In this document: positions 2,453-53,390 of the stretch, piece after piece
Position numbering within the stretch: position 1 is the stretch's first letter
How the letters are laid out: each line of letters opens with the position of its first letter
From: an uncultured Phycisphaerales bacterium
Lineage (GTDB): Bacteria; Planctomycetota; Phycisphaerae; Tepidisphaerales; Tepidisphaeraceae
Reading direction: 5' to 3'
DNA length: 64,000 bases
NCBI GenBank assembly: GCA_903871935.1
Contig: CAIQIQ010000029.1
Span: 1-64,000 of the forward strand
Position numbers and translations under genes: made by a program
The notes under the pieces: model-generated
What the model saw: only the letters and a program-made list of their open reading frames with translations
Databases searched by the model: none
What the model was told of the DNA's origin: nothing

Positions 2453-2458
2453 TATACT
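2453..2458 (+). promoter_or_regulatory. -10-like box next to the start of the 79-aa ORF
   Basis: TATACT ends 7 nt before the ATG at 2466, with no Shine-Dalgarno in between. This spacing would give an essentially leaderless transcript. A -35 element is not convincing. Confidence 0.3.
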
Positions 2459-2732: not shown

Positions 2733-2761
2733 TTGCCCCACCCCTCGCCGCGTCGTAGGCT
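2733..2761 (+). promoter_or_regulatory. Candidate promoter of the MTA phosphorylase gene
   Basis: TTGCCC (2733-2738), a 17-bp spacer and TAGGCT (2756-2761) end 7 nt before the ATG at 2769. No Shine-Dalgarno is present, so the transcript would be nearly leaderless. The match to consensus is moderate. Confidence 0.35.
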
Positions 2762-2768
2762 TATTGGT

Positions 2769-3704
2769 ATGAGCACGGTTAAGATTGGTCTGATTGGCGG
2801 CAGTGGGCTGGGGCAGGCGCTTCTGGAAGGGCATGAAGGCCAGCGCCACGAGTTGGACACCCCTTTCGGCAAGGCCTCGGATGCGGTGATCGAGACGGAA
2901 GTCGCCGGCCTGAACGTCTTTATCCTCAATCGCCACGGACCCGGCCACACCATCAACCCGACCCACGTGCCCTTCCGCGCCAACATCTACGCGCTCAAGT
3001 CGTTGGGTGTCACACATATTATCGCCTCCGGCGCTGTCGGCTCGCTGCGCGAGGAGTTCAAGCCGCGCGATCTGGTCATACCCGATCAGGTCATCGACAA
3101 GACCAGCCGCCGCGCTGGCACCTTCTTTGAAAAGGCCGCCGTCCATGTCGAACTGGCCGAGCCGTTCTGCCCGCTGCTGCGCCAGCTTCTGCTTGAGGCT
3201 GGTTCGCAACTGGCTACCGCCGAGCAACCCGTGAACACGCACGGCCGCGGCTGCTATGTGTGCATGGAGGGCCCGGCGTTCTCCACGCGTGCTGAGAGCC
3301 TGATGCATCGCCTCTGGGGCGGCGACCTGATCGGCATGACCGCCATGCCCGAAGCCAAGCTCGCGAAAGAGGCGGAAATGGCCTATGCTCTGGTGGCCTT
3401 GGTGACTGACTACGACTGCTGGAAGAAACGCCCGGCTGAGCAGAGCACCGATCCCGCCGAATTGATGCGCGAGATCATCGGCCACCTGCAGGTCGCTACC
3501 GGCAATGCCATGACGCTGGTCAGGCGTGCTTTGGATCTGGCCGCCGCGCGGCAGGATGAGCTGATGAAGTCGCCATCGTTGCAGGCGCTGGGCCTTGCGA
3601 TCTGGTCGAACAAGTCGCAGATCGCGCCCGATGAGGTGCTTCGGCTCAAGCCGATCTGGGGACGCTACTTCCAAACCATGGAGAGCCAATCAGTGCAATC
3701 ATGA
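2769..3704 (+). CDS. mtnP: S-methyl-5'-thioadenosine phosphorylase / purine nucleoside phosphorylase family
   Basis: A phosphorolytic enzyme that splits 5'-methylthioadenosine to adenine and methylthioribose-1-phosphate (methionine and purine salvage). At 311 residues it is slightly longer than the roughly 285 usual for MTAP. Motifs are IGLIGGSGLG at the N-terminus (phosphate loop), NRHGPGH, IASGAVGSL, CYVCMEGPAFSTRAES, IGMTAMPEAKLAKEAEMAYA and VTDYDCWK; the last is characteristic of MTAP rather than other purine phosphorylases. The start at 2769 is chosen because the protein then begins at the conserved STVKIGLIGG; the ORF extends upstream to 2733. The stop overlaps the start of the next gene (ATGA, 3701-3704), implying translational coupling. 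Confidence 0.93.
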   Translation: MSTVKIGLIGGSGLGQALLEGHEGQRHELDTPFGKASDAVIETEVAGLNVFILNRHGPGHTINPTHVPFRANIYALKSLGVTHIIASGAVGSLREEFKPRDLVIPDQVIDKTSRRAGTFFEKAAVHVELAEPFCPLLRQLLLEAGSQLATAEQPVNTHGRGCYVCMEGPAFSTRAESLMHRLWGGDLIGMTAMPEAKLAKEAEMAYALVALVTDYDCWKKRPAEQSTDPAELMREIIGHLQVATGNAMTLVRRALDLAAARQDELMKSPSLQALGLAIWSNKSQIAPDEVLRLKPIWGRYFQTMESQSVQS

Positions 3705-8355: not shown

Positions 8356-8384
8356 ATGACTTGCGCCCCTTCTGGCGGTATTAT
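8356..8384 (+). promoter_or_regulatory. Candidate promoter of the FHA-GspE gene
   Basis: ATGACT (8356-8361), a 17-bp spacer and TATTAT (8379-8384) end 7 nt before the ATG at 8392. No ribosome-binding site is seen, which is another leaderless-type arrangement. Confidence 0.4.
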
Positions 8385-8391
8385 CGCCTTC

Positions 8392-10161
8392 ATGGTGTAC
8401 CTGCAGATTGACTCAGGCGGAGAAACCCGCCGCTTGGAACTGGGTGATGCGCCGGTACAAATCGGGCGCATCGCGGGTCGGAACACGCTGGTCCTGGAAG
8501 ATAACCTCATCAGCCGCAAGCACTGCATCTTCAGCAAGCTCGGCGATAAGTACACGGTCAACGATCTCGGCTCCTCCAACGGCACCTACGTCAACGGTGA
8601 ACGCCTCGCCCAGACCGCCATCCTCCAGACTGGCGATGTCATCTCTGTCGGCCATAACCAGATTCTCTTCATTGACGAGTCTCAGCCTGCGCGAGCACCC
8701 GAGCCGCAAGCCAGCGCGGTTCCCGCCGCTGCGGCCGGCGCTGACGCCGCCGAACCAACCCCACTGGAGCTCGACGAATCCGATATCGTCGATGACACGC
8801 CGGATATCTTTCAGGCCTCTACCAGCAACGACTACCAGCAGCACGTTGAACCCACTGTGGCCGAAGATTATGAGTCGGTGCTCCTGCGTCTGGCCGAATC
8901 CCTGCCGGACAAGAGCTTCCAGGACTTCAACATCTCCCTGGTCAATGCCCGCGGCGCCGTCTCCCATCCCGCGACCTTGGCCCCGCCACCACAGCGCTCC
9001 AGCGAAGGCGGCGACGCCGTCCGCCTCTTGCGCCTGATTCTGCTGATCTGTTTCCGCACCAACGCCTCCGATATCCATGTGGAGCCCAAGGAGCACCTCG
9101 TCCTCGTCCGCATCCGCGTTGACGGCACGATGATCGATCTGGTCCGCCTCGACAAGGTCCTCGCCGCCAAACTCACCTCGATGATCAAGGTGCTCGGTGA
9201 CATCGATATCGCCCATCGCCAGATCGTCCAGGAAGGCCACTTCTCCTCGCGCCTGCCCGATCGTCGCGTTGACTACCGCGTCAGCTTCGCCCCTTCGGTC
9301 TACGGCCAGAAACTGGTGATCCGGCTTCTCGATGCCAAATCCGCGCCGCTGCGCGCCGATCAGCTCAAGCTGCCCCCGTGGATGGCCGAACAGCTCATCC
9401 GCGCCACCGAGATGGAATCGGGCGTCGTGCTGGTCTGTGGGCCCACGGGTTCCGGTAAGACAACTACTCTCTACGCCGTGCTCCGCTCGCTTGACGTCGG
9501 CCAGCGCAACGTCATCACCATCGAAGATCCGGTCGAAATCCAGCTCCCCGGCGTTACCCAGTTGCCTGTGAACGATGATCAGGGCAACACCTTCGCCAAC
9601 CTGTTGAGGTCCGTGCTCCGGCAGGACCCCGACGTCATCCTCGTCGGCGAAATTCGCGACCCCGAAACCGCCAAGACCGCCATGCAGGCCGCCATCACCG
9701 GGCACCTGGTCTTTTCCACCCTCCACACTCGCGACACCGTCGGCACCATCTTCCGCCTGCTGGACCTGGGCGTTGAGCCATACATGCTCGCCCAGGGCTT
9801 GCAACTGGTGCTCGCTCAGCGCCTGGTTCGCCAGCTCTGCCAGCACTGCAAGGTGCCGCAGAGACTCACCGCCGAGCAGACCGCCAGGATCATCGCCGCG
9901 GTGCCGAACTTCAAGCAATCTTTCACCCGCCGCGGCTGCCCGCGCTGCATGGGCACCGGTTTCACCGGCCGGCGCGGCGTCTTCGAACTGCTTATCGCCA
10001 ACGATGAGCTGCGCGATGCCGTCCTGCACAACCGCTCGAATCAGGCCATCACGCAGGCTCTCGCCAACTCCAAGTTCGTGAAGCTAAGCCACCATGGCTA
10101 CCAACTCGTAGCCGAGGGCATCACCTCCATCGACGAAGTCGAGCATGCCGTGGGAATATAA
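8392..10161 (+). CDS. FHA domain fused to a GspE/PilB-type secretion ATPase
   Basis: A cytoplasmic hexameric ATPase of the type II secretion/type IV pilus family. Residues about 1-95 are a forkhead-associated domain (GRNTLVLEDNLISRKHCIF and DLGSSNGTYVNGE), which binds phosphothreonine. An acidic linker follows to about 190. The T2SSE domain has SDIHVEP, Walker A GPTGSGKT (350-357), an Asp box (ITIEDPVE), Walker B with DPDVILVGEIRDPETA (about 411-426), a His box (STLHTRDT) and a zinc tetra-cysteine site (C483, C486, C516, C519). The start at 8392 begins at the FHA sequence; the ORF extends to 8356. Family ATPases normally have an N1E/MshEN domain instead of FHA, so assembly may be phosphorylation-controlled (inference). 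No pilin or GspF gene is adjacent. Confidence 0.93.
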   Translation: MVYLQIDSGGETRRLELGDAPVQIGRIAGRNTLVLEDNLISRKHCIFSKLGDKYTVNDLGSSNGTYVNGERLAQTAILQTGDVISVGHNQILFIDESQPARAPEPQASAVPAAAAGADAAEPTPLELDESDIVDDTPDIFQASTSNDYQQHVEPTVAEDYESVLLRLAESLPDKSFQDFNISLVNARGAVSHPATLAPPPQRSSEGGDAVRLLRLILLICFRTNASDIHVEPKEHLVLVRIRVDGTMIDLVRLDKVLAAKLTSMIKVLGDIDIAHRQIVQEGHFSSRLPDRRVDYRVSFAPSVYGQKLVIRLLDAKSAPLRADQLKLPPWMAEQLIRATEMESGVVLVCGPTGSGKTTTLYAVLRSLDVGQRNVITIEDPVEIQLPGVTQLPVNDDQGNTFANLLRSVLRQDPDVILVGEIRDPETAKTAMQAAITGHLVFSTLHTRDTVGTIFRLLDLGVEPYMLAQGLQLVLAQRLVRQLCQHCKVPQRLTAEQTARIIAAVPNFKQSFTRRGCPRCMGTGFTGRRGVFELLIANDELRDAVLHNRSNQAITQALANSKFVKLSHHGYQLVAEGITSIDEVEHAVGI

Positions 10162-10181: not shown

Positions 10182-10213
10182 TTGACCCGATCCGCGCCAG
10201 GGGCGAGTATATC
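10182..10213 (+). promoter_or_regulatory. Candidate promoter of the AsmA-like gene
   Basis: TTGACC (10182-10187) is followed by an AT-rich GAGTATATC (10205-10213), giving spacers of 17-20 bp depending on register. The last box ends 8 nt before the ATG at 10222 with no ribosome site between. Confidence 0.35.
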
Positions 10214-10221
10214 GGTCTCCA

Positions 10222-13200
10222 ATGTTTGGTTTCCATCGTCGCACGAGTGCACATGACAAACCGGCGGGCATCGCCCGCCGACGCCGGCGCTGGTACCGGC
10301 GCTGGACACGTTATGTCGTCTGGAGCGCGCTGTTCCTGCTGGTGGCCGGGATTATCGCGTACAACATCATCACCCAGGACCACCGCGTACGGGCCTTCCT
10401 CGAGCAACAGCTTAGCCATGCCAGCGGCGCCCGCGTCCGGATCGGATCGGCCAGCTTTTCCATCATGAGCGGCCTGCATGTCAACGGTGCGGAGTTTCTC
10501 ACTGATGAATCGACCACTGCCGGCGCCAGGCTTCTCACGGCCAGGGATTTGAACGTCGTCCTCGATTACTCGGAACTGTGGCGTTTCAGGGCCCCGCGAT
10601 TGGCCCTCCTGGAAGCTCAAAACGTCGATCTGTCCCTCATCGAGGATGTCGATACGGGCACCTGGAATTTCGAGGAGCTGCTCGAGGCCCGCCGCCGACA
10701 ACCTGCGGCAATCCCAGAATCGGATCATGCCGGCAAAGACATGGTACCTACTGTATTTCTGCGCAATGCCAGCGTGCGTTACTTCCGCAAAGAATCGCAG
10801 AAGATCACCGAAGCCGGGAAGATCGAGGTACAAGCATCCGTCTACCCGATGTCGCCAAAGCATTACGGATTCAGTGCCGTCGCCCAGCCGCCCGGAACCA
10901 CACGCACCACCACCGTCTACGGGGTATTCGATTCCAATGCTGGCACGATCGATGGTCGCATCGGCGCCCTGCAGTTTGATGATGCCCTGCGCAGAATGAT
11001 GCCAACACAGGTACGGCAATGGATGGAACGTCTGGATCTCTCCGGGCAGATTTCCATTCCGCGCTTCAGGTACAAGTTCGGACCGCCCAAGGATGCGTTC
11101 GACATCACGCTCGCGTTTCACAACGTGCAATCCACAGTACAGCCCGATCAATGGCTCAACGACCGGGAACACTTCCGCCGTTCCATCCTTCGCGAGTCGA
11201 TCTGGCTGTTCGACCGCATGGGGATGGACCAGAAGCTCAATCCCGGCGACCTGGTCAGCGCCAGCGATGAAGATGCCTGGCCGCGAAGCACGCTGGAATA
11301 CCTGCGCCTTAATATGCGCATGGTTCCCCTGAGCCTGAAGCAGCTCCAGGGAACGGCACGCTTCACCACTGATGCAATCGAGCTCAACGGCGTCCACTTT
11401 CAGTTGCAGGGCCAGTCATTCGTCATGAATGGGCGGATGAATGGCTATGCCGGCAACGCTCCCGGTGAGATCCGCGTGCAGACCGAGCCCGGCACCTTCC
11501 TGCAGGTTCCGCCCGACCGCCAGTTCATGAACTGGCTACCCGATGAGGTTCATAAGGTTTATCTTCAATTTCAACCCGAAGGAAAAGCGAGGCTCGATGT
11601 CCAGCTTGTGCGCTCCAAACCCGACGAGGGATTTGAGCCGACCGTCATTGTTGAACTGTTTGACTCGCAGTTTGCCTTTGACGATTTCCCCTACCCGTTG
11701 CATCGCTGTTCCGGCCGCATTGTCTTCGCCCGTGATGAAACCACTGGCGAAGAACTCGTCAAGATCGTTCGCCTGACCGGACACGGAATTCCCGGCGGCC
11801 CCAATGCAGGCAAATCGGTTGAGATCAATGCGACTGTCGGTCCCTTCGTCGCCGGCGGAGTGGGTGTTGATGTCCGCGTTGAAGGCAAAGACATCACCTC
11901 CGAGCCCGCCATCCGCCAGGCATTCCCGCGGGAGATCGCCAAAGCCATGCTGATCTTCGGCCCGCCCGACTACGGCGCTCGCCAGGCGACCGCCGGCAAG
12001 CCGCCCGAACTGGCGTCCGAAGAGCTCTTTCATTGGCCGGAGTTCTTCGGCGATTTCACGGCGCATGTTCACCGCGAGCCCGGCCCGAACAAGGGAGTTG
12101 ACACCGATGTCACGCTGGATCTGAAGAAGGCGGCCGGCTCGTTGCGGGTCTTCCCTTATCCGATGAACAACATCGCCTGCAAGCTGCGCATCCTCGATGA
12201 TGATGTCCACCATGAACTGCAGGTTCACTCCGTGACCATGAGCCAAAACGGAGCGACGCTGAAGATGAACGGCAGAGTCGAGTTTGGCGAACCGACCATG
12301 CCTGACCTGAGTGTCGAAGCGTTGAACGTCCCTATTGACGAAGATTTGCTCAGTGCCCTCCCCCCCACCGAACGCGGCTGGCTCAGGAAAGCTTCACTTG
12401 AAGGCCGTGTTGACATCGTCGGCCGGGTCTTCCGCGATCCCCCGGGAACACCGCGGGCGGACGACACCAACTTCGCCCTGGCACTGCGGCTCCACGATGC
12501 CAAGCTCTACCGTGACGCCCAGGGACCCGCCGCCACCAACCTCAATGGCGATCTCTATCTAGTGCCCGGCCGCCTCGACCTCAAATCGGTCATCGGCCGG
12601 CGTGGCGATGCCGAACTGCGGATCACCGGCTACGCCAACTGGGAAACGCCCGATGTGCAATTGCAGCTTTCGGCGCGCAATCTTCTGCTCGATCCGCTAC
12701 TCCACGACATCCTGCCCAGATCTGCCCAGGAAAGCTGGGACCAGCAGAAGCCCCAGGGCACCAGCGATGCCGACCTCGCCTACTCCCTGACCAAAGCCAA
12801 TGATGCCGCGGGGCAGACCGCCGATGCCTTGAATGAGCACATCCGCCTGGCCTTGCGCCCACGAAAGCTCTCTATAACATCGGACAGCTTTGCCTACAGG
12901 CTGGACGATCTTGGCGGCGAAGTGATCGTTGATGGACGCGATGTGCAGTTCAAGCAACTGACCGGCCGGCATGGCGCAACTCGGGTCGACATCAGTGGCT
13001 CGGGCACAACCGGCCCACAGAGCAACTTCGATCTGAAGATCCGCGCAGTGGACTTGGAGCCCGATAAGGAACTTCTCGCGGCTGTCCCTTCAGCGCTGGC
13101 GGACATTCTCACCGGGCTTAAAACTGGAGGCCAATACACGGTTGACTTCGACAGATTTACGCTGCGCGACTCGGATTCCGCCCGCGCGACAACAACGACG

Positions 13201-14127
13201 GCGGGAACGCCACCCCCAGCATCTTCCTCGCGGCCCACGACCCGCCCAGTGGATCTCGACTTTTCCTGCACCATCGCGTCGGATGACGGCTCGCTTGATA
13301 TCGGTGTGCCAGTGACAACGCTGGTTGGCTCTGCGCAACTCACCGGCGAGGTGCGCCAGAGCGAACTGACGAAGCTCGATGGCTCCATCGCTGCAGACAG
13401 CTTCAAGCTGTTGGGACGCGCCGGCGGCTGCCTTAGCGCCACACTCCGCCGACCGCTGTACTCCCAGAACCTCATGATCGAGTCGCTCCGCTCCGATTTC
13501 GCCGGTGGCGTCGTCTCCGGCGGCCTTACCATCCTTGGCAGCAACGACCGGCCCCCTCGCTACGCGGCCGATATCGTCATCCGCAACGCCGATGTGATGC
13601 AGATCGCCGGCGATGCCCTGCGCAAACCGGTTCGGGCGCAGTTTTCGGCCGATCTCGGCGTAGAAGGCATCTTCGGTGATGTCAGGAATCGTCACGGCCG
13701 CGGAATGATCACGATCAACGGCGAAAACATGTACGAAGCCCCGATCGTTCTGGGCCTCTTCCGCCTGGTCAACCTGGCCCTGCCCGTGCAGCAAGGCGTG
13801 CGCAACATCCGTCTCTCCTACGTCCTCAACGGCGATGTCGTCACCTTCGACACGGTGGAGATGAGTTCCCCGGGCTTGCGAATATACGGCGATGGCAAAC
13901 TTGATTTCGGCACGCGGAAAATGTCCTTCACGCTGAACACCGAGAACCCCGATGGTCTGAGCCTCCCGATTATCGGCACCCTTACCCAGAGGCTCCGCGA
14001 GGAACTCCTGCAGATCAAGATCTCCGGCACCCTGCAGGAGCCCGAAGTCAAAACCACCCCTTTCCCCACCTTCCAGGCCACGCTCGGCCAGGTCATCGAA
14101 GATGTCGAGCGCAAACGCAAACCATAG
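10222..14127 (+). CDS. AsmA/TamB-like inner-membrane-anchored protein, 1301 aa
   Basis: A very basic N-terminus (residues 19-30 mostly Arg) precedes one transmembrane helix (31-50). The AsmA-type start then follows: RAFLEQQLSHASGARVRIGS, and a LHVNGAEF beta-strand motif. The rest is a long beta-rich periplasmic domain, ending with a conserved-looking FDTVEMSSPGLRIYGDGKLDF block near 1210-1230 and a GTLQEPEVKTTPFP tail, typical of AsmA/DUF3971 C-termini. Members of this superfamily are bridge-like lipid transporters between inner and outer membranes; that role is inferred here. It is convergent with manC, with 14 bp between the stops. Confidence 0.8.
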   Translation: MFGFHRRTSAHDKPAGIARRRRRWYRRWTRYVVWSALFLLVAGIIAYNIITQDHRVRAFLEQQLSHASGARVRIGSASFSIMSGLHVNGAEFLTDESTTAGARLLTARDLNVVLDYSELWRFRAPRLALLEAQNVDLSLIEDVDTGTWNFEELLEARRRQPAAIPESDHAGKDMVPTVFLRNASVRYFRKESQKITEAGKIEVQASVYPMSPKHYGFSAVAQPPGTTRTTTVYGVFDSNAGTIDGRIGALQFDDALRRMMPTQVRQWMERLDLSGQISIPRFRYKFGPPKDAFDITLAFHNVQSTVQPDQWLNDREHFRRSILRESIWLFDRMGMDQKLNPGDLVSASDEDAWPRSTLEYLRLNMRMVPLSLKQLQGTARFTTDAIELNGVHFQLQGQSFVMNGRMNGYAGNAPGEIRVQTEPGTFLQVPPDRQFMNWLPDEVHKVYLQFQPEGKARLDVQLVRSKPDEGFEPTVIVELFDSQFAFDDFPYPLHRCSGRIVFARDETTGEELVKIVRLTGHGIPGGPNAGKSVEINATVGPFVAGGVGVDVRVEGKDITSEPAIRQAFPREIAKAMLIFGPPDYGARQATAGKPPELASEELFHWPEFFGDFTAHVHREPGPNKGVDTDVTLDLKKAAGSLRVFPYPMNNIACKLRILDDDVHHELQVHSVTMSQNGATLKMNGRVEFGEPTMPDLSVEALNVPIDEDLLSALPPTERGWLRKASLEGRVDIVGRVFRDPPGTPRADDTNFALALRLHDAKLYRDAQGPAATNLNGDLYLVPGRLDLKSVIGRRGDAELRITGYANWETPDVQLQLSARNLLLDPLLHDILPRSAQESWDQQKPQGTSDADLAYSLTKANDAAGQTADALNEHIRLALRPRKLSITSDSFAYRLDDLGGEVIVDGRDVQFKQLTGRHGATRVDISGSGTTGPQSNFDLKIRAVDLEPDKELLAAVPSALADILTGLKTGGQYTVDFDRFTLRDSDSARATTTTAGTPPPASSSRPTTRPVDLDFSCTIASDDGSLDIGVPVTTLVGSAQLTGEVRQSELTKLDGSIAADSFKLLGRAGGCLSATLRRPLYSQNLMIESLRSDFAGGVVSGGLTILGSNDRPPRYAADIVIRNADVMQIAGDALRKPVRAQFSADLGVEGIFGDVRNRHGRGMITINGENMYEAPIVLGLFRLVNLALPVQQGVRNIRLSYVLNGDVVTFDTVEMSSPGLRIYGDGKLDFGTRKMSFTLNTENPDGLSLPIIGTLTQRLREELLQIKISGTLQEPEVKTTPFPTFQATLGQVIEDVERKRKP

Positions 14128-14141
14128 TCCAGCGCTCGCAC

Positions 14142-15239
14142 CTATGCATATTCCGCGCCATACTTCGCCTTTGCCGCCTCCGCCATTTCTTTCACTCGTT
14201 GCGACTTGTCGATGGGGCAGATCAGCGTAGCATTCTTCGTATGCACGATGATCATCTTCTCGATCCCCACCGTGCTGATCAGATGCCGCGGATCATCGCT
14301 CACGATCACGTTGTCGCGCGAGTCCACCAGCAGTGTCAGAGGTCCGGAGATCGTGTTCCTCGCGGCATCCCTTTCCAGCACATCCGCCAGCGCCGGCCAG
14401 CTTCCCACATCAAACCACTCCACCGGCATATCCACCATCATCACCCGAGCATTGCCGCGTCCCTGCGATGCCGGTTCCATCACCGCAAAATCGATGCTCT
14501 TCTTCGGCAACTGCGGATACACCCGGCCCACAACTTCTTGCGCCCGCGGTGTATCCCATGCCTGCCCTATCTCCATCAGCCCGCCATATGAGCCCGGCAG
14601 ATGCTCCTTCAACTCGCCCAGGATCGTCTCCGCGCGCCAGACAAACATCCCGCTGTTCCACAGATATTCGCCGCTTGCCACATACTTCTGCGCGGTCCCC
14701 AGATCGGGCTTTTCCTTGAACTGTTTCACAAAATAAGCGTCCTGGTCGTCCACCTTCACCACCTCGCCTCGATGCACATACCCCAGCCCCGTATGCGCAA
14801 ACGTCGGGCGAATGCCAAAAGTGATCAGGGCATTGCGATACCGCTGCACCACCCGGAACGCCAGTTGGATCGATCGGGCAAAGCGTTCGACCGGACGGAT
14901 CACATGATCGGCTGTCACCACTGCCATCACCGCATCTTGGTCGCGCTTCAGCAGCACCGCCGCTGGAAAGCCAATCGCATTAGCAGTGTCCCGGCCCGTC
15001 GGCTCGCCCAGTACATTCCCCTCGGGCAGACCCAACTCGCGCTGGACCTGCCCGGCATATGCCGAAGATGTGCAAACCAGGATTCGCTGCGTCGGCAAGA
15101 ACGACGCCAGCCGTTCAAAGCTCAGCCGCAGAAGGCTCTTGCCCCCAATGATCGACAGGAGCTGTTTGGGCTGAGTCGCCCGAGACATGGGCCAGAGCCG
15201 TGTTCCCGAGCCGCCTGCCATGATTACGCCATATTCCAT
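14142..15239 (-). CDS. manC: Mannose-1-phosphate guanylyltransferase
   Basis: Makes GDP-mannose from mannose-1-phosphate and GTP for exopolysaccharide or glycan synthesis. The 365-residue single-domain form has the nucleotidyltransferase signature GVIMAGGSGTRLWPMSR (residues 4-20), VVTADHVI, the active-site FKEKPDLGTAQKYVASGEYLWNSG region and SIDFAVMEPA. The phosphomannose isomerase domain of bifunctional homologues is absent. The ATG at 15239 starts at the conserved N-terminus and lies 6 nt after a near-consensus promoter; the ORF could be extended to 15305. It is the last gene of a minus-strand polysaccharide-related run. Confidence 0.95.
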   Translation of the reverse strand: MEYGVIMAGGSGTRLWPMSRATQPKQLLSIIGGKSLLRLSFERLASFLPTQRILVCTSSAYAGQVQRELGLPEGNVLGEPTGRDTANAIGFPAAVLLKRDQDAVMAVVTADHVIRPVERFARSIQLAFRVVQRYRNALITFGIRPTFAHTGLGYVHRGEVVKVDDQDAYFVKQFKEKPDLGTAQKYVASGEYLWNSGMFVWRAETILGELKEHLPGSYGGLMEIGQAWDTPRAQEVVGRVYPQLPKKSIDFAVMEPASQGRGNARVMMVDMPVEWFDVGSWPALADVLERDAARNTISGPLTLLVDSRDNVIVSDDPRHLISTVGIEKMIIVHTKNATLICPIDKSQRVKEMAEAAKAKYGAEYA

Positions 15240-15245
15240 GCACAA

Positions 15246-15274
15246 TTTGTAGACGCAACCGCCGGGCTTGCCAA
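15246..15274 (-). promoter_or_regulatory. Near-consensus promoter of manC, leaderless position
   Basis: On the minus strand TTGGCA (15274-15269), exactly 17 bp, then TACAAA (15251-15246), followed by 6 nt and the ATG. No Shine-Dalgarno exists between box and start, so the transcript would begin at or next to the ATG. manC is therefore probably a separate transcription unit from the dioxygenase gene upstream. Confidence 0.6.
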
Positions 15275-20422: not shown

Positions 20423-20500
20423 TTGCGTCGGCTCCTGCACCAACCGAGCTCTGCCGCACTTCTGGCTCTGTTGCGGCAAAGCTGATAACCTTTACCCGTG

Positions 20501-26392: not shown

Positions 26393-29300
26393 TCAGGGGA
26401 TTACCTCCCAGATCAACGGGCGATTGCCCGGACCAAATGTTCCCGCGGCAAACATCGGCTCATCCACGACCTGCGACTGGTTGATCTTCAGTACTCCGGT
26501 GTCATTCATGACATGCACCACGGCGGTCGAGCCGACCGGAACGTTCAACAGCGACACCTTCCCCACTAGCGGGGCCGAAATACTGCTGTTGACCACATAT
26601 GCCGGTTGGCTCTGTCCTGCCGGCACCTTCTTGCCCGTAACGGTCAGTGATCCAAGCTTCGCGCTGGAATTGGTGACGGCGGCCCGGGTGATCACATTAT
26701 CGCTAAAGGCCCGGTCCACGCCGACCAGCACCTCGCTGTTCAGCAGCGACGCGATGGTCATCGTCTTAATCCCGTTCTGCGCCTGGATGCGACTGTTGTT
26801 CAGTGCACCCTTAAGCGACATGGTCGTAATCATACCATCGACACGCAGGTCCAGAGCATTGACGTCATGGCTGAGAGTCAACTTGGCAAGTGAAATGCCC
26901 TGAGGATTAAATCCAGAGCGAATACTTCCCGTGATCGAGCTTGCCGCAATGGTCCCGATCGAGGTTGTGGCGGAGATATTGCCCTGGATCGCACCGGTTA
27001 CGGTGACTGTCTTCATCGTTCCGGCCGACACATCCGCCTGGAAGTCGCCGGCAACAAACACCGGCGCGTTCTTCTTGCTTCCAGTGATCTTCAACGTGCC
27101 AAGGGAGGTCGTCTGCAGCACGTCGGGTATCCCGTCGCCATCAATCCATTGCATCAGAGTCAAAGACTTAAGTGCCAGACTCCCGGTGTCGATGCTGCCA
27201 TCATGCACCTGCAGGAATTGGATCGCGACTGAACCCGAAGCAAGGCCAGTGCCCAGATTGACGTCACCTTCAAGGCTGACCGCGACACCACTGATTTGCT
27301 TCAGCGGGCCGGCACAGGTAATGCCATTCAGGTGATACACACCATCGCCAGTGCCCTGCTTCACGGTGATTGTCAGCACAGACTTCATCGTCGTGCCCGT
27401 GAGCGTGAGCTGGTTGCTGGTGTCGAGCATACCTGTTCCGCCACCGGTCAGCCGGAATGTGACCTGGTCGCCGTTAATCGACACCGTCACTGGAGTTGAA
27501 CCAATGGCCGTGCCTGTACCCGGCGGTGTCACGGGCTCATCAGGCAGGATGGTGTCGTTGCCGCCACCGCTGTCTACAGTGTCGTTCGCATCGGCGTAAA
27601 TGGTATCATCGCCCAGGCCACCGGAAAGGCTGTCACCCCCGGGGCCGCCGCGGAGCACGTCATTGCCATCCTCACCATAGAGCGAGTCGTTGCCGGCGCC
27701 ACCAACAAGGGTGTCGTCGCCGGCGCCGCCGAAGACCGCAGCACCTTGAATGCCAGACCCGATGACAACCAGATCGTCGCCATTGAGTGCCAGGACTCGG
27801 ATGCTGCTCACGGCGCTAACGGCAGTAAGCGTCTCCATGCCATTGACAATCGTACGGATGTTCGATCCCTGGAGCATAAGCTCGATGGTATCGTTGCCAT
27901 CGGAACCACTTACGAGCAATTCTGATCCGACCAGCGCCACAGGGCTGATGTTCACGTTGGCGGATCCGAGGTTGCCGCCGGCCAGTTTCCCACCTTCGAC
28001 GGTGCGAACCGGATTGGGCGACTGCACTGTGACGGTGTAAACGCCGTTGTCGGTGTAGTCCCAATGCCCGCCAGGTCCTCCAATGGCAAACTTGACCGTC
28101 TGGGATGCCTCGTCGTTCCCACCGATGACGAATGAGTCAAAGGTGGCAGGAATCGATACGCCGCCAGCCTGCCCGAGGGTAATCACGCCATCCTCTTGCA
28201 GCGTGCTTGAGGTGATGGAATCCCCAGAGGTAAACCTGACGGTGACATACATATCCGAATCGCCACCGGCCGGATTCTGGACGCTTACCAGTCTCGCGGT
28301 AACCGGCGATACGACAATCGCCACGTTAAACGTGCCTGCGGAGACGGGATTTGCCACGTTGCCGCTGAGGTCCTTGATCTGACCGGGCTGCACGTTGATC
28401 TGATAGGTGCCATTGTCCCATGCACTCCACATCCCTCCTGGAGGAACGATGCGGTACGTTGCCGAAACCGTCGGACCACTGACCGGAGCCACGGCGGGCG
28501 CACGGTATTGAACGGGGATCACCGTGCCATCGGGCGCAATAACCACGACATTGCCGTCACCCAGCGTACTGGCATCGACGGCCGAGTTATCTGACCAGTT
28601 GATGGTGAAATCGTAGAAGGTGCCACCCTTGGTCGTCACATTAGGAGCCTGGATGGAACCCACCACGGGCTTCTGCGTATCGGCCGGGACTGCAACGGTC
28701 ACTGTGCCCAGCGTGCCGGCTGCAACAGGATTGCCGCCTGTATCCAGCACCTGGCCGGCCTGCATAGAGACCGTCCAGACGCCATTGCTTGCCATGTCCC
28801 ACGCTCCGGCGGGACCTGTGAACACATAGGTGGCAACGCGAACGGTGGTGTTCACGCCGCCAACCGACGAAACCGAGGTCGGGCTGAGCGTCGTTCCATC
28901 ACTCGTACGCGTGATAAGCAGATCATTTACATCAATCGTTGCGGGATTCATCGCGCCATTGTCGGTATAGGTGACAGTAACGCTGATGGTGTTGACGCGG
29001 TTGGTGACACTCGGCACGGGCGTCATGGAGGCAATAGGCGGAATATCATCAACAAGACCACTGATCACGAGGGTACCGAGGGTGCCGCCTGCGACGTAAT
29101 TGGGCACAGGAGCTGTATCGGCCACCTGATTGGAGTTCATCGAGAATACATAGCTTCCGGCGTCGGAAACATCCCAGGTGCCTCCGGGCGGTATGATCGA
29201 ATAGATCCCCACAACCGTCCGGGCATTGCCGGCAGGCGTTGCCGACATGAAGTGGGCCGCCTGGTCGTAGCCATTCGGACCGGTGACGCGGACATCGGTG

Positions 29301-32300
29301 TCATCCAGCGTGCTGCGGTTGACGTTGCCATTGTCCGTATAGGTTACTGTAAACTGGTAGCTGGAGTTGCCAACGTCAGTCACCGGCGGCAGGTCGATCG
29401 TCGCGGTTGGCGCAATCGAGTCGGTGAACACCAGCACCTGGATGTTGCCAAGCGGTGCCGTGAGCGAGCCAGATACAAAGTTCGGCACCGGGTCAGTATC
29501 GGAAACCTGGCTGGGCTTCATATAGACTGAATAGGTACCGTTATCCGAGAAGTCCCATGTGCCGCCAGGAGCGCTGATCCGATACGTCACGATGATCACG
29601 CGATCATCCGTCGTGGCGGGCGTTCCATCCTGCCGCACCATGCTGACGACCGAAACTGTTCCCTGGTTGGGGTTGGGCGGGATGCTGGGCGTGTTGTCGG
29701 CCACGTAGCCGCCAGGACCCAAGACGCGGATGTCATTGGCGTCAATGGAAGTCAGCTTGATTCCCTGGTCATCGCTGTACTGAACCTGCAGATCCATGAA
29801 GGTATCGCCGTACAGCATCTGACCCGGATTAGGCAGAAGCACCGCCTTGGGAACGACAATCGAAGGTGGATCGATGCGAACGATGAACGCGCCCAGGTTG
29901 CGCGCGGGCGCCGCAAGAGTCACCAGGCCGTCGATGTCATAGACTTGGTTGGCCGCCTGCCAGACCTGGTAGGCGCCATTGTCGAGGTAGTCCCATGTCC
30001 CGCCCGGAGCCGCAACGCTGTAGGTCACGACGATTGTCTTGGAACTTACACCGGTGCTCGCCACCGCGCTGATCACTGGCAAGTGATCGCCATTGGGCGC
30101 GACCAAGTACACATCATTGATATCCAGCGAATTGGCATCGACCAGGAAGTTGTCGGTATACGTAACCGTGAAGCTGTAGTTGGCGCTGGGGGGCAAAGGC
30201 GCCACCTCAATGTTATTGGCCTGCAGCACCGCCTGCGGGGGGAAGTTATCGCCCAGAAGGCGGGCAGTGGCCAATTCGTACCGTCCACCGGTGAACTGAG
30301 TCCCGGCAGTGACGATCTTGCCGTCGCTCTGCACGAAGACGCGCGAACCGGTAATGGCCGCACCGTCCAGATTTGTGGGAGAGGTGCTGGTCATGCCATT
30401 GGTGCCGAAAGCCGTATCGGGTGTGCCATTGGCAAAGTACCGGAAAACGAGCGTGCGGGTTTGGCTGGGATCACGTGCACTGACAACAATCTTCCCGTTG
30501 TCCTGCATAACGATGTCGTAGCCCCAGCGACTGCCCACGGCGGATTCGGGATCGACAGCCATCGGCGGCACAAACGTGCCGTCAATCTGCACCAGACCAC
30601 GGTTGCCAAAGGTCCCATCGATCGAACCGTCCGTATTGAAGCGAACAATGGCGCCCTTGCCGTTGCCATAACCGACCGCCAGGATCTTGCCATCCTGTTG
30701 AAGAGCCAGGGATTCGACGGAGGCATCGGTCCGGCCAAAGTCGCCGACTTCCACAATGCCATTGCCGTTGAAGGTAGTGTCAAACGTGCCATCGGCATTC
30801 AACCGCGTAACGACAAACTTGCGATAGCCGGTGTACTGGTCATAGCTGCGCGTATCGGAATAACCGCCGACGACGATCTTGCCATTGGGTTGAACCACAA
30901 CCGCAAGGGGCTCATCGGTAGCATAACTGGAGAACGGGGCATTCGGCGGAGCGCCTTGCTGGCCGGTGATATGAACAGCGCCGTTCACGCCAAAAGTATT
31001 GTCAATTGTGCCATCGGCATTGACGCGCGCAATGATCCAGTCGGTACCCGTCGCGGCATACGGAGAACTGGCCACAACCACGATCTTGTCGTCAGCCTGA
31101 ACGAAGGCATCGTGGACAACCAGATTCGTGAGCGTCCCATTCGCTTCGTACGCCGTCGTGCCGATCGTCCACTCCGTAACATTGTGGTTGGGATCTTGAT
31201 CATCAAAGGTATTGTCCAAGACACCAGTCGGGTAGAACCGGCTCATGCTCAGCACATCGGGGGCCATTAGCGTATGAGCTGTGTCATTAGAGCGCAGCGT
31301 AGTGCGCCCGACAACGACGACGCGCCCGGTTGACTGTGTCAGGGCAATAACCGCCTCATCGGGACCAGGCGTGTAGCGCTGGGGAGGGTTCGGCGGAATA
31401 TGCACGTTGCCCCAGGAACCGCCAAAGTCTGTTGTGCCATCCTGCATGAAGCGGCCGATCCAGAAATCGGTGGTGTCGTGAGGATCAACAGCAAGATTCG
31501 CCCCAACAGCCGTACCGCTGAAGATCAGCTTGCCGCCGGGCTCCTGGGTAACGCCGGCCATGAACGGGACCGGGCCGTTAAGCCGCGGGCCATGGTTTTG
31601 GGTTCGCATGTAGCCGTCGGCATCCCAGGTGATATCCAGTTCGCCCGCGTATAGGGCGCTGGCAACGGCAACCGTGAAGTTGCCCAGCGGGCCGGCCGGC
31701 AGCGTGTCGCCAGTCGTGCTCAGCACTCCGTTGCCTGCAACCACCGACACGGTGTAGATGCCGTTATCGCGGCGGTCCCAGACGACGCTGTCGAAAGGTG
31801 CATTATTCTGCGGTGCAATAATCTTGTAGGTGACCCGAACCGAGCCATCGCCCAGAATCACATGACTGACATACTGGCCGAACTGGTCAAACCCATTCGG
31901 CCCGGTGACTTCGACGATGCCGTTGTTGTTCGCAATGGTGGACAACTGGAAACCGTCCGAAGCGAAATAGGTCACGATGAACGACAGCGACCCCGTCGGT
32001 TGCGTAATCGGCGCAATCGGTGTCAGGGTCGCCTGCGGGCGAACGACGAACACAATGAAGCCCGCGCCCAACGCGCCGCCTGGCACGCTCTCCGGCACCG
32101 GCTGCAGATCGACGATTGCTCCGGTTCTCACGGAAATTGTGTAGTTGCCGTTGTCGCTGCCATCAAAGTTGCCGTCCGCCGGCACAAAGCTGTACGTGCA
32201 TACCCAGTTGTTGCCAACCAGGGTCTTGGTGACCATTGTCGCCTGCGTCGAGACACCCGCGGGATTGATAACGCTGATGGCCGTGTCGAATGCACTGGAC

Positions 32301-35300
32301 GGATTGATGGGGGCATCAGGAGATGCCACATATGTCACTGTAAAGGTCAGGGCGCCACGGAAGTTATTGATATCGCTGATCGGCGTCAGTTGCGCCGTCG
32401 GCCGACCCCAGTGGGCCGCATCATCAACAACCGCAAGCGTGATCGTGCCCGGCAGTGGTCCGGCCGGCACAAAGCCCGCCGGAATATCCGTGTCATGCGC
32501 TGTGCCTGGCAGCACATTAACGGTATAGATGCCATTGTCGGTGGGCATCCACGAGGCATCCGTCGCCGCATTGGCACTGATCGTATAGTGCCCTGTAACC
32601 TGGCGAGTACCCGGGTTCGTCGAGAACGAACGCAAGGTCGCCGTCTGCGCGTACCCATTCGGGCCAGTCACGCTGATCGCGTTGGCAATACTTGCGGTGT
32701 TAATTCCAATAGCTATCGGCGACAGACTGGTCGGCGGCGTAAACATGACATCGAAGCCGATGAACTGCCGCTTCTCTACATTGAGCACGTTGCTCACCAA
32801 TTGCGCAGTGGGAACGCCGATCGCCACCTGCACTGGGCCGAAGATATTCTCGGCCGCGCTGCTTTCCGGCAGCACCTGCGTATCGACGATCGCGCCGGCG
32901 ATCAATTGGATGTTGTAGGTGCCGCTATCGACCACGCTCCAGGTACCATCGGCAGGCCCTGCCGAATAGTGAGCCGTAAAGGTGCCATCGCCGTTATTCG
33001 CAACGGGGCCGACGATGGCGGTCGGAACGATCGCGCCGTCGCTTCTGGCCATGACAACCGCCTGGGCGAAGTTGCTCTTGGCGGGATCAATGGCAAATCC
33101 GGCAACTCGCGCGTGGAAGCGAACCGAGAACAGGATCGGACCACGCACCTGAGTAATCGGGAAATCGGCGGGGTTCGCCAACGTCACATCTCCGGTCGGG
33201 CGGGCACTGGGCACCGGGGTGATATTGGGGATATTGACGTTAACGATGTCGAGATTGGCCGCCCGCGCCACATTGGCCGGGATGGCCGAGTCGGAGATCA
33301 TGCCGCCAACCAGTTGGATGGTGTAGGCGCCATTGTCGGCGGGATCCCACGATCCATCGCCCGGAGTCATCGAGTAGCGAGCGGTATAGCCTCCACCGGC
33401 TATCGGGGTTAGCGTCCCGGCATAGTAGGTGACTGGAATATTGATCCCGCCAGGGCCGCTGACGGTGATAGCCGAAGCGAATCCGCTGTTCAGGATCGGG
33501 GGCACGCCAAAGGCCGAGGGAGAGAATCGCACCAGGAACGAGATAAGGCCGCGCGATGCGACAATCGGGTTTCCAGCGTCGATCTGCAAAACGGTGACAC
33601 TCGGACGCGAATCCTGTCCGGCGAGGATCGAAACATCAAACGTAGCCAACTGGGCGGCTTGGGCAAAGTTGGCCGGATTCTCGGTATCCTTGATCATGTT
33701 GGCCTGCAGCGACACGATGTAGGTGCCGTTGTCAGCCAGATCCCACGAGCCATCATTGGCCGGGGAGACAATGTAGCTCGCCACGTAAAGCCCGGTGACG
33801 GGATCCACTGTGGCTGGGCCAGTCAGGGTAGCGATCTGGTTGAATCCGCCGGAATTGGTGATGCGCAGAGCATTGGCAAAATCGCTGGTCGCATCAATCA
33901 CGCCATAGGAATACGGCGAACTGGCAAAGGTCACCTGGATGCTGATGCTGTCGAGCGATGCCTTGATCTGCGTGCCGGCCGCAACAAGGTCCTGATCCGG
34001 GGAGATGACAATCTTCGTAACCTGCGGATAGACGGTAGTAGCGTCGTTCACCGCAACGTTGAACTGGCCAACCTGGCCGGCCGGCATGTAGTTCGGCACC
34101 GTAGCCGTATCGGCCACCTGATTGGCCCGCATGGATATGCGGTACAGTCCGTTATCGGTGGAATCCCATGGGTGAGCGTAGTCTGCCGCGCCACTGGCGC
34201 CTGGCGCCAAGATCCGGTAGGTAACCTGGACCTTTTGGTAGGCGTTCAGCAGCCTGAGGCTGCCGGGCACGAGTTGGGCGAGCTGCGAATAACCACGCGG
34301 GCCAACGACCTGCAGGTCGGTGCTATCCAGCAGAGCAATATTCACCACCGAGCCCGGCTGGCCGGGGATGTTATTCGGATCTTCATAAACGACAGTGAAA
34401 TCAAAGTATGCCCGGCCGCGAACGGTGATGCCCGGAACAATGTCGTTGGCGGGCAACGCCAGCGCATAATTCGTCAATGTGGTGGGCACGAAGCCGATAG
34501 GCGCGGCAAAGACCAGGGTGTCGTACCACGCGTTGGCCAGGTTCGAGCGGAGCATTCCAGCAACAGTCAGAGTACTGCCGGCGCCGGGGCCACTGATGAT
34601 GTTGACCGTTGCACCAATCCACTGCGTAGCGGTCCAGCGGGCAGTCTGATCCACCAGGGTGGTGGTTGTGCCACCAGTGGCTACGCCACTGGCGGCCTTG
34701 TTGTAGTTGAAATCAATCGTCGGCGGGGTGGTATCCGGAACGCCAATGGCCACCGTAAACGCGCCGAGTGTGCGGGCGCTCATGGCCAGGGGAGCCGCCT
34801 CGTTGGGATCATTCACCGTATCGCCATTGTCGGCGAGTGTACGGTTCGCATCTTTGATGATGCCACCGTCGATGGTGATCTGGTAGAGGCCGTTGGTAAA
34901 CCCACCCACCGCACCGATGTTGACAGAATACGTAACGCTGACCGACTTCGCGTCGACCACGCCGTCCCCATCGCGATCCCGCTGCGGAGTCGTCATCCGC
35001 GTGATACCGGTAATCGTAAACGTGGCCGGGACCAGTGTCCCGGTGGGGCTAAACAGGTGCAGATACGTAATCGCACCCGTGCCCAGCGAAGCAACGGAGA
35101 CAAACTCGTCGTCGGAGTAAGTGACCGTGAAGGAGTAGGTCGGATTCACCGTGTAGACATCCGACGCCTGCAGGTTCGCCGTTGGCGCGGCATTCTGCGT
35201 CAGATACCGGGCGATATCGAAGTGCGCGAATCCGCCGCCATTCCCGTCCCAGGCAAAGACGATCTTGTCATCACCAACGCCGTTGGGACCGCGATTCACA

Positions 35301-38300
35301 AGCAGGGATGTCGGCCAGCCCAGTTCCAGCGATGATTCCTCAGTGGTGCGGGAGACCGTGGCGGTAATCGATGCCGGCGCGAACACAACCGTTATGAGTC
35401 CAGTAGGCGCGCGAACAGCCGTGATCACGCGTGTGGCCGCGACTGCGGCATTGATGCCTGATTGAGCATACGTAATCGTCGTGAGTCCGACCGGCGCTGC
35501 AGCAGCTGTGATGATGCCTGCCGGCGCCACTTGGACGGTGGTTACGCCCGATGGCACAGCCACCGGCGAAGTGATCAGGCCAGTGCGTGCCCAGGGAGCA
35601 GTCAGCAGACCGCTGGCCGCTGCCACGTAAGTATCCGTACCCGTGGGTGTTACGGACACGATGACCTGCGTCAGCGTCATCTGGCTGGTCAGCGTCTGGG
35701 TTGGGCTGAACCTGAACAGGGTTGCCAGGGAGGCGAACAACGGATGGATGGGAGGCGCCACCGAGAAGTTGAAGGTCAACCCGCCGATTCTGGTCAGGGG
35801 CTGACCGATAACCGTGAGGCCGGCATCGCCCGTCAATGCACGGGCCACCGCCTGGATCGTGGCAAGAGAAGCGTTGTACGCGATCGGGGCACTGGTAACG
35901 CCGTTGTACGTAAGCGTCCATGTGCCATCGGCAGCGAGAGTTGTATTCGGAATCGTCTGCTGCGCAAGACTGGTCAACCCGGTCATGTCGGCGCTGAAGG
36001 TGTTGGCTGCGCCGGCCAAGGTGAACGTCAAATCGCCACCAACATTGACCGCGTTACCGCTAACGACGGTTGCGGCGCAGCCGGGCAACAACACTACAGC
36101 CGCCTGGATCTGGGCCAGGGTGGCGTTGAACGCAATCGGGGCTGTCGTGTTGCCATTGTAGCTGATCGTCCACGTTCCGGCCGATGCCGGCGCGGCGACC
36201 GTCATGACCTGAATGTTCCTGGACATCGTCAGGGCACTCACGTCCAAAGAGAGCGACGTGGGATTGAATTCCAGGACGTTGTCAAACGTAAATACGATAT
36301 TGCCACCAGCGGGCCCAATAAGTTGCGTACCGCTCACAACCACGCGATCGCAACCAGGGATCATGCGAATCGCGGCCTGGATCTGCGGGATGGTGGCATT
36401 GTACTGAAGGACGATGCTTGGGATCCCGTTGTAGATCAGCCGCCATGTGCCGCCAGTGGCAGGATCCTGGGTCGTCAGCGTCTGGACCTGGTTCGCCCGC
36501 AGATTGGACACATCGAAGCTGAGCGGAAGGATCAGGCCGACGTTAAGACTGGAACTGAACGTGAAGACAAGCTGCATGGCCGAGTTGAGGCCACCGGTGC
36601 CCGTGACCGTGACCGTATCACAGCCCGGCAACGCCTGCACGGCCGCCTGGATCTGGGCAATGGTGGCATCAAACTGCAGCGGAAGCGTTTGGACGCCGTT
36701 GTAGACGACCCGCCACGTGCCAGAAGCCGCCAGATAGTTGGTGGTGAGTGTCTGGCTGCCCATGCTAACGGTCAGTGCGCCGTAATTCACCGTGAAAGGT
36801 AGCGGACCAGCGACGCTTGGGTCAAACGTGAGGGTGAAGTTCCCATCCGTTCCCGAAACGCCCGGATCGTTACTGAAGGGGCCACCAGTCACTGTGACCG
36901 TGGCGCAGCCCGGCAGCAAGCGAACGGCAGCCTGTACCTCAGCCGCGGTCGCGTTGTGCTGGAGAGCAGTAGTGGTGTTCCCGTTGTAGGTAATCGTCCA
37001 GGTGCCCAGAAGGGCCGGGACGTTCGGATGGAGGACCTGCACGCTGTTCGTCGTGATATTGGTTAGGTCAGCAGTCAGCGCAGTGGGTGCGCCGCCAGGG
37101 AATGTGAAGACCAGATTGCCACCGACATTGACCGGATTGCCGGACACTATGACTGCACCACAGCCGGGCAGCAACTGAACGGCCGTCTGAATCTGGGCCA
37201 CAGTGGCGTTGAACGCCATCGGAGCTGTCGTGTTGCCCGCGTAGGTGATCGTCCACGTGCCCGATACGCCGGGCTGGCTGATCGTCATCGTCTGAATCAG
37301 GTTGCTGCGGAGCGCGGCCACGTTGGCGCTGAGCGTACCGGGAGCGCCGGTGCTGAACGTAAAGACAACGTTGCCACCAATGACGATCTCGCTGCCCGAA
37401 ACGATCAGACCAGCGTCACCAGTGAGCAGGCGAGCCTGAGTCTGGATCGTCGCAAGCGTGTCGTTGAAGGCAAATGTGTGCGAGTTAACGCCATAGGTCA
37501 GCGTCCATGTGCCCGCGACCGCTGGTCCGACTGTCGGGAAAGTGAACGTCTGCTGGAAATTGGTTCTAATCAGGCTCAGATCGGCGCTCAGCGTTGTGGG
37601 CGCGCCAAGGGTGAATGTGAAGACCAGACTCCCACCAACATCCACCGTATTGCCGGTAACGGTCAACCCGACGTCGCCAGTAATCAGGCGAGCCTGAGTT
37701 TGGATCGTTGCAAGCGTATCGTTATAAGCGAACGTGTGCGAATTGAGGCCGTAGCTCAACGTCCAGGTTCCAGCCGTAGCGGGTCCATTCGTGGGGAACG
37801 TGAACGTCTGAATCTGGTTTGTGATGATGCCGCTGACATTCGCAACCAGATTGGCGGGGTTACCACCGCTGAAAGTGAACGTGAGAGTTCCGCCGACATC
37901 CAGCGGGTTGCCGCTCACCACCAGAGCGGCATCGCCCGTAATCAGGCGCGCCTGAGTCTGGATCGTGGCGACTGAGTCGTTAAAGGCAAATGTATGCGAA
38001 TTGACGCCATAGGTCAGCGTCCACGTGCCGCCGACGGCCGGATTGGCCGTGGTGATCGTCTGCACGCGGTTGGTGCTGATCGCGCTCACATCCGCGGTCA
38101 GGGCCGTGGGGGCGCCGCCGCTGAAGGTGAACGTCAGCGTGCCGCCGATGTTCAAGGGATTGCCGCTGACCACCAGCCCGGCGTCGCCAGTCAGGGCGCG
38201 AGCCGCCGTCTGAATCTGCGCCAGGGTGGCGTTGTACGCCAGCGGCGCAGTCGTGCTGCCGCCATAGCTCAGTGTCCAGGTGCCAGCCACGGCCGCCCCG

Positions 38301-50595: not shown

Positions 50596-51117
50596 AAGGA
50601 TACCTTGGGAAACCGACTTCTCCGTCGAAGAGTTCCGGCTCGAGCGATTAACAAACACGACGCCTCTCCTTTGCCTTTATTTCAGGCATTCGAGGAAATT
50701 CGATTCCCCGGTAAGTGGTGCCTTACCGTCCATGAGAGTAACAACACAGTAATCGAGCGAAAACCGATCATCACTCTCGCCACACTTCCCCAGATCCCAA
50801 TAGCCTGAGATCAAGGGCCGATGACTGCCTCCCTCGGCGGCAGTCTTGCCGACTTGAGTGGGATGCCGGGCGACATCTTCCGGCACCGTCAGACCGCACG
50901 TCACACGATTATGACGAACAGCCTAACTCGCAGGCACACAAGCCCATGCCCACGACCTTGTCTGCGTCGGCAAGCTGCATTTGGCACCTTACCAAACACA
51001 GACAGATTCCCTCTTCTAAAGAGGGTGGCGGACATGGTAAGCGAACTCTGCAAATCATGCAAACAAAAACGCTTCGGTCTTTGACGCACCTGACATCCGC
51101 GGCTAAAAACCCCTACC
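50596..51117. other. Intergenic region between divergent secretin and pheA genes
   Basis: About 520 bp with no convincing gene. It should contain both promoters, but no confident -35/-10 pair was found. It holds three small inverted repeats: CGGTAAG-N6-CTTACCG (50709-50728), GACTGCC-N9-GGCAGTC (50823-50845) and CCCTCTT-CTA-AAGAGGG (51009-51025). Short ORFs across it on both strands have no protein-like features. Confidence 0.6.
50709..50728. promoter_or_regulatory. Inverted repeat upstream of the secretin gene
   Basis: A perfect 7-bp inverted repeat, CGGTAAG and CTTACCG separated by 6 bp, 114 bp upstream of the secretin start. The two-fold symmetry and spacing suit a dimeric regulator site or a 5'-leader hairpin. 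Confidence 0.35.
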
Positions 51118-53384: not shown

Positions 53385-53390
53385 ACTATA
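53385..53390 (-). promoter_or_regulatory. -10 box adjacent to the dinB start
   Basis: TATAGT on the minus strand ends 6 nt before the ATG. CTGCCA lies 18 bp upstream as a weak -35 (4 of 6 consensus positions). Confidence 0.4.

Follow-up and report, generated by a model that had tools for sequence, protein, structure and literature searches.

Gene content and candidate promoters

The window, i.e. the whole stretch of 64,000 nucleotides that was analysed, comprises bases 1-64000 of contig 29 of a genome of 6.32 Mb in 172 contigs. Its minus strand carries a manC-like gene encoding a mannose-1-phosphate guanylyltransferase (14142..15239; Pfam NTP_transferase and ManC_GMP_beta-helix). Because the best three of the closest named relatives of this gene are Phycisphaerales/Phycisphaerae bins (51-58% identity), the host genome was placed in the class Phycisphaerae of the Planctomycetota, which is its most likely position.

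Directly upstream of manC, the minus strand reads TTGGCA (-35 element, 15269..15274), 17 nt, TACAAA (-10 element, 15246..15251), 6 nt and the start codon ATG (15239-15237). The first-pass annotation had described this arrangement as a leaderless-type promoter, and had named similar -10 boxes before ATGs at 2466, 2769, 8392, 10222 and 53378. All six quoted -10 strings are present in their places. We scored the sites with a -10/-35 matrix, using 9,139 internal ATGs as background; the six sites were excluded from its training, its -35 part was seeded with TTGACA, and a 17-bp spacer was preferred. As promoters, five of the six obtained scores of 8.0-10.1, reached by 0.01-0.21% of the internal ATGs, and their -10 boxes end 6-7 nt before the ATG, but the site at 10222 scored 1.6. 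The manC site was confirmed by string check and by the matrix, with a score of 9.2 that 0.05% of internal ATGs reached; its TACAAA does not have the TANNNT core. The manC start agrees with the homologues. Our home-made gene caller, which is approximate, had placed it wrongly at GTG 15305, a choice that is ruled out as the homologues begin at ATG 15239.

Further matrices were cross-trained between the host genome and its relatives. They had no TTGACA seed, and their training began at the position set by a 17-bp spacer. The matrix trained on the relatives only retained the sites of manC, 2466, 2769 and 8392 (0.1-1.5% of shuffles).

An enolase gene is annotated at 1041-2330. On the plus strand, a putative -10 box TATACT (2453..2458; score 10.1) ends 7 nt before the ATG at 2466, which opens an orphan 79-amino-acid frame (2466-2705). 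This frame had no match in 30 relatives, and its part 2466-2665 had no Pfam match. A conserved small protein at this position was hence rejected for lack of a match in the 30 relatives, and the gene is unproven. A second putative -10 box, TAGGCT (2756..2761; score 8.0), ends 7 nt before the ATG of a gene of the phosphorylase superfamily (2769-3704, plus strand; PNP_UDP_1 by profile annotation), which has a match in 29 of 31 genomes including its own. Likewise, TATTAT (8379..8384, plus strand; score 9.6) ends 7 nt before the ATG of a gene whose product combines an FHA domain at the N-terminus with a type II/IV secretion ATPase (8392-10161, plus strand). The start at 8392 agrees within two residues with that of one relative, and the orthologue in one relative is also preceded by such a motif.

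At 10222, TATATC (10208..10213, plus strand) ends 8 nt before the ATG of a gene for a DUF748/YhdP-like protein (10222-14127, plus strand; match below curated cut-offs). Its low score was reached by 18% of the internal ATGs, and its cross-trained score by 28% of shuffles. We therefore reject 10222 as a leaderless promoter, and chance suffices to explain this listed site.

The putative -10 box TATAGT (53385..53390, minus strand; score 9.0) ends 6 nt before the ATG at 53378 of a dinB-like gene for DNA polymerase IV (52221-53378, minus strand, by profile annotation). This site has no good -35 element and was weak in the cross-trained matrix (43% of shuffles), so that its case rests on its conservation in orthologues. 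The starts at 2769 and 53378 agree with those of homologues.

Two -10-like motifs on the plus strand had not been listed in the first-pass annotation. TAACCT (20486..20491; score 8.8) ends 9 nt before the ATG at 20501, and TAAAAA (51104..51109; score 10.2), with TTGACG 17 bp upstream, ends 8 nt before the ATG at 51118.

The window also contains, on its minus strand, an open frame of 4,958 amino acids with DUF5122 beta-propeller and RTX calcium-binding repeats (26393-41269), and an adjoining RTX protein of 782 amino acids whose match to a PPC domain fell below the curated cut-off (41371-43719). The predicted products appear to be giant proteins of a secreted type.

Position of -10 motifs relative to start codons

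A genome-wide peak of -10 motifs near position -12 had been set beforehand as the test of the proposed leaderless genes. Motifs were counted in the window and 40 further stretches of the genome, in total 681 kb of which 11.6 kb was masked. In this sample, 474-475 genes were called by the gene caller, which is blind to upstream motifs. The main test set consisted of 296 ATG genes that had no gene on the same strand ending ≤30 nt upstream, and the comparison set of 79 genes in tight runs, with a same-strand neighbour ending ≤30 nt upstream. Dinucleotide shuffles served as the null model (300 rounds, with a repeat of 100 rounds).

The motif TANNNT, with its first T at -14..-11, preceded 35 of the 296 genes, compared with 10.4 ± 3.1 expected from the shuffles (maximum 20); the repeat gave 10.7 ± 3.4 (maximum 26). 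In the tight-run genes it occurred at chance level, with 2/79 against 1.9 expected, and no enrichment was found there. Eleven altered motifs at the same position in the same genes gave 5 to 21 counts each, and TANNNT preceded internal in-frame ATGs at 0.03-0.45% per position. The peak in the host genome is spread over -16 to -11. Across the whole genome, where TATAAT was counted, it lay 5-8 nt before an ATG in 56 cases; the control spacings of 1-4 nt and 21-24 nt had 18 and 24 cases, respectively, and the reversed-pattern controls gave 7, 9 and 4. The peak was thus found both for TANNNT in the sample and for TATAAT in the whole genome, and the proposal withstood the test.

An apparent second, smaller rise in the raw position counts of TANNNT lies at about -44 to -36 in the genes that are not tightly preceded. 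Promoters of transcripts with a leader of about 25-35 nt would produce such a rise.

The genome is GC-rich and its upstream regions are richer in AT, such that TANNNT strings could lie near ATGs by accident and have been picked out by a reader of the sequence. Accident is expected to account for some 10 of the 35 genes, and for some 21 of the 53 genes found under the wider rule given below. As an account of the whole set, however, chance is very improbable: 35 genes exceed the largest count of either series of shuffles, the TATAAT counts peak at one spacing, and the spacing is conserved in orthologues with random flanks (see below). We therefore reject it for the set, whereas single sites may still be accidental.

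Promoter identity and Shine-Dalgarno motifs

The wildcard bases of TANNNT in the 35 genes tend toward TATAAT, and GG often stands just before the motif. Furthermore, T is enriched at -23, -22 and -21 from the first T of the -10 motif (14, 21 and 15 of the 35 genes, respectively). This is the position of a -35 box with a spacer of 16-17 bp, which points to a -35 partner signal, and no -35 sequence had been used to pick the 35 genes. The set as a whole hence carries -35 information at 16-17 bp, while some single sites, such as that of dinB, have no good -35 box. The cross-trained matrices agree with this. At a score of 7, the family-trained matrix recovered 28 of 296 genes in the host genome (shuffles 1.6%), and the host-trained matrix 32 of 310 genes in the family relatives (shuffles 1.3%); the earlier matrix counts for G000 and for the host family were in-sample.

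A Shine-Dalgarno-like tetramer was present in 1 of the 35 TANNNT genes compared with 132 of the 261 other genes. It was also rare in genes with altered motifs (AT...T, 1/23; CA...T, 3/26; TA...C, 0/22), and the avoidance is therefore partly geometric, as both motifs compete for space. Among genes led by TANNNT at -16..-11 (hereafter TA-led), 3/69 had a Shine-Dalgarno motif, compared with 46/150 for five pooled A/T permutations (Fisher test, 3e-6). The base directly before the ATG was C in 42 of the 69 TA-led genes, in 102 of 241 genes led by a Shine-Dalgarno motif (p 0.009) and in 106 of 296 other genes. This enrichment fits a CA initiator, but is only suggestive.

The 3' end of the 16S rRNA reads GGATCACCTCCTTT, the canonical anti-Shine-Dalgarno sequence, and Shine-Dalgarno-like motifs in the host genome lie at about -13 to -9. 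Among 463 genes with a usable upstream region, 204 had a Shine-Dalgarno motif, and 53 were TA-led without one, against a shuffle expectation of 21.2 ± 4.7 (maximum 33); 51 of these 53 lie outside tight gene runs. Leaderless candidates would thus comprise about 7% of the genes after subtraction of chance and 11% before it; the count misses any -10 box that departs from the TANNNT core, as the one of manC does. With Shine-Dalgarno-like motifs at so many genes and a canonical 16S 3' end, beside a -10 peak that avoids the Shine-Dalgarno motif, the sequence supports the mixed leaderless and Shine-Dalgarno strategy that had been suggested at first reading.

The remaining 206 of the 463 genes lacked both a TA-led promoter and a Shine-Dalgarno motif. 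These genes probably use a further initiation mode or carry weaker signals.

An ATG-proximal -10 box may coexist with a second promoter further upstream. The -10 boxes described here could then give a minor transcript, while a main, leadered mRNA is translated without a Shine-Dalgarno motif by way of low structure or protein S1. The 206 genes with neither signal are in line with this proposal, and PMC5397173 discusses both S1 and low structure. However, the proposal accounts neither for the conserved distance between motif and start codon in orthologues nor for the chance-level counts in tight gene runs, and we consider it unlikely. Promoters that adjoin the ATG and give leaderless or near-leaderless mRNAs are our preferred reading.

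Conservation in orthologues

In each orthologue, the start codon was assigned to whichever ATG or GTG lay closest to the homologous N-terminus. A dinB match was found in 26 genomes; we took the 20 best loci, and 19 of these had a usable start. For the phosphorylase gene, the best 20 loci of 29 genomes were used, and for manC the best 26 of 29 loci minus one without a usable start, leaving 25; the three loci not used were a second fragment of the G007 gene and the two that had diverged most.

The dinB orthologues carried TANNNT at -16..-11 in 16 of 19 cases, compared with a shuffle rate of 8.1%. TA-led orthologues were found both within the family (10/12) and in other families of the class (6/7). 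The 36 bases upstream of the dinB -10 box have a pairwise identity of 27%, which is the random level. Because the upstream DNA has been randomised, selection appears to have held both the -10 box and its spacing from the start codon.

The other two genes were more variable. Orthologues of the phosphorylase gene at 2769 were TA-led in 11 of 20 cases (shuffle rate 6.3%), all within the family, and 4 of the 20 had a Shine-Dalgarno motif instead, three of them outside the family and one inside it (G009). This pattern suggests a switch of initiation mode between relatives. For manC, 4 of 25 orthologues were TA-led (shuffle rate 4.6%) and 8 had a Shine-Dalgarno motif. The manC promoter is plausible in the host genome, but the arrangement is not a conserved trait. 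In 16 sampled orthologue pairs, the TA-led state was found in both members of 3 pairs, in one member of 3 and in neither member of 10, and agreement was only marginal.

The homologues also bear on the choice of start codons. If the gene caller, being approximate, had chosen wrong ones, the promoters would be real but the true start would be a downstream ATG with a Shine-Dalgarno motif, behind an ordinary short leader; TANNNT does precede other candidate ATGs near the called start as well. Most manC, dinB and phosphorylase homologues, however, have their N-termini at the ATGs used here or no more than a few codons away. Moreover, among the 20 other TA-led proteins that were scanned (of 36 listed), 15 had a Pfam domain, in some cases beginning near the N-terminus (Epimerase at residue 3, Amidohydro_2 at 3, G6PD_N at 10 and Aldo_ket_red at 15). 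Misplaced starts are thus a highly improbable explanation of the peak.

Distribution among related bacteria

The first-pass annotation had suggested a mixed strategy in this lineage. Enrichment was indeed found in the host family. With the host genome left out, the family pool had TANNNT at 34 of 310 genes, compared with 9.5 ± 3.1 expected (maximum 18). Two family members had no TANNNT excess, G008 with 1/37 against 0.8 expected and G009 with 4/51 against 2.4; by the in-sample matrix, there was an excess in G008 (4/37) and none in G009 (2/51).

Results for the rest of the class and phylum were mixed and come from small samples. The class pool outside the family (four genomes) had no significant TANNNT excess (7/141 vs 5.3 ± 2.2), nor had 20 pooled genomes of other classes (11/145 vs 7.0 ± 2.4). 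The matrix gave 4/141 (p 0.16) and 4/145 (p 0.065) for these two pools, respectively. Among single genomes of the class, G030 had 3/24 against 0.2 expected, and 4/24 by the matrix, while no excess was found in G020 (0/28), G026 (0/27) and G025 (5/38 vs 4.7). The wider evidence is mixed: G030 and the conserved dinB speak for enrichment outside the family, and G020, G025 and G026 against it.

Named loci around relatives of manC were counted where they exceeded 6 kb. The 18 Phycisphaerae loci, which include at least one contig from the host family, had TANNNT at 14/127 genes, compared with 5.5 ± 2.4 expected (maximum 12); in the same loci, the flanking bins (8.5) and the tight-run genes (6/31) were also high. 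Counts were 13/123 against 9.0 in 16 unplaced Planctomycetota loci, 2/24 against 0.9 in five loci of the Planctomycetales/Pirellulales type, and 3/13 against 0.2 in three loci of the Verrucomicrobia type.

Leaderless transcripts are a known feature of Actinobacteria, which were used as a positive control. In the same pipeline, they gave 36/138 against 1.6 expected, with the same peak at -13/-12, more frequent and tighter than the one at -16 to -11 in the host genome. The matrix transferred poorly to Actinobacteria (5/138), although plain TANNNT performed well there. The E. coli K-12 control gave 3/92 against 6.4 expected.

Discussion

Our results make it highly probable that sigma70-type promoters adjoin the ATG of a subset of genes in this family of Phycisphaerae, giving leaderless or near-leaderless mRNAs beside genes with Shine-Dalgarno motifs. 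In the proposed mechanism, a sigma70-type promoter would have its -10 box ending 6-9 nt before the start codon, and transcription would start on the A of the ATG or a few bases upstream of it. The product would be a leaderless or nearly leaderless mRNA, on which the ribosome would recognise the 5'-terminal AUG with initiator tRNA rather than by Shine-Dalgarno pairing. Alongside Shine-Dalgarno genes, this mode would be used by some 7-11% of the genes of the family, almost all of which have no close upstream neighbour on the same strand.

Other bacteria are known to use this mechanism, and its instance in a family of Phycisphaerae appears to be new. Recognition of a 5'-terminal AUG with initiator tRNA is described for leaderless mRNAs in PMC10783764. 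Of the 953 bacterial genomes surveyed by Zheng et al. 2011 (PMC3160421), 207 were reported to have leaderless genes, whose TANNNT lies at about -12. The TA-led genes of that study resemble those found here in having a -10-like TANNNT about 12 nt before the start in a GC-rich genome, and the share of 7-11% falls inside the range given there for other phyla. Its main text does not contain the word Planctomycetes; a table row 'Other Bacteria' counts 8 of 20 genomes, the members of which are not itemised there.

In Deinococcus-Thermus, a -10 region adjacent to open reading frames was shown by experiment to drive leaderless mRNA (PMC12340547). The architecture is the same, but according to that paper it concerns about 30% of the open reading frames, whereas the smaller share reported here comes from sequence analysis. 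The paper also mentions a supplementary figure with a scan of species from the whole bacterial domain, and Planctomycetota may be among them. In 2017, PMC5397173 placed Planctomycetes, with one species in its tables, among the phyla tending to a leaderless and/or S1-type bias. Unlike the present analysis, its passages on this bias have no gene-level promoter evidence, and the name Phycisphaer- is absent from the study. Among the matches listed in the open-licence literature, there was no map of transcription start sites or gene-level report of leaderless genes for Phycisphaerae, and of the 15 open-licence papers that mention both leaderless and planctomycet-, none was by its title on leaderless genes or transcription start-site maps of Planctomycetota.

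If these promoters act as proposed, gene-level evidence for leaderless genes would be extended to a family of Planctomycetota. This bears on the calling of start codons and on promoter recognition in these largely uncultured bacteria. We regard as possible, though doubtful, a further reading in which certain genes of class Phycisphaerae have long been leaderless and are kept so by selection, as in dinB, while others such as the 2769 phosphorylase gene and manC gain and lose this state. An old trait held in this way would point to a functional reason rather than a neutral habit; a repair polymerase, for instance, could then be expressed while ordinary initiation is impaired. The conserved dinB promoter thus raises the question why one gene would be kept leaderless across large distances while others switch.
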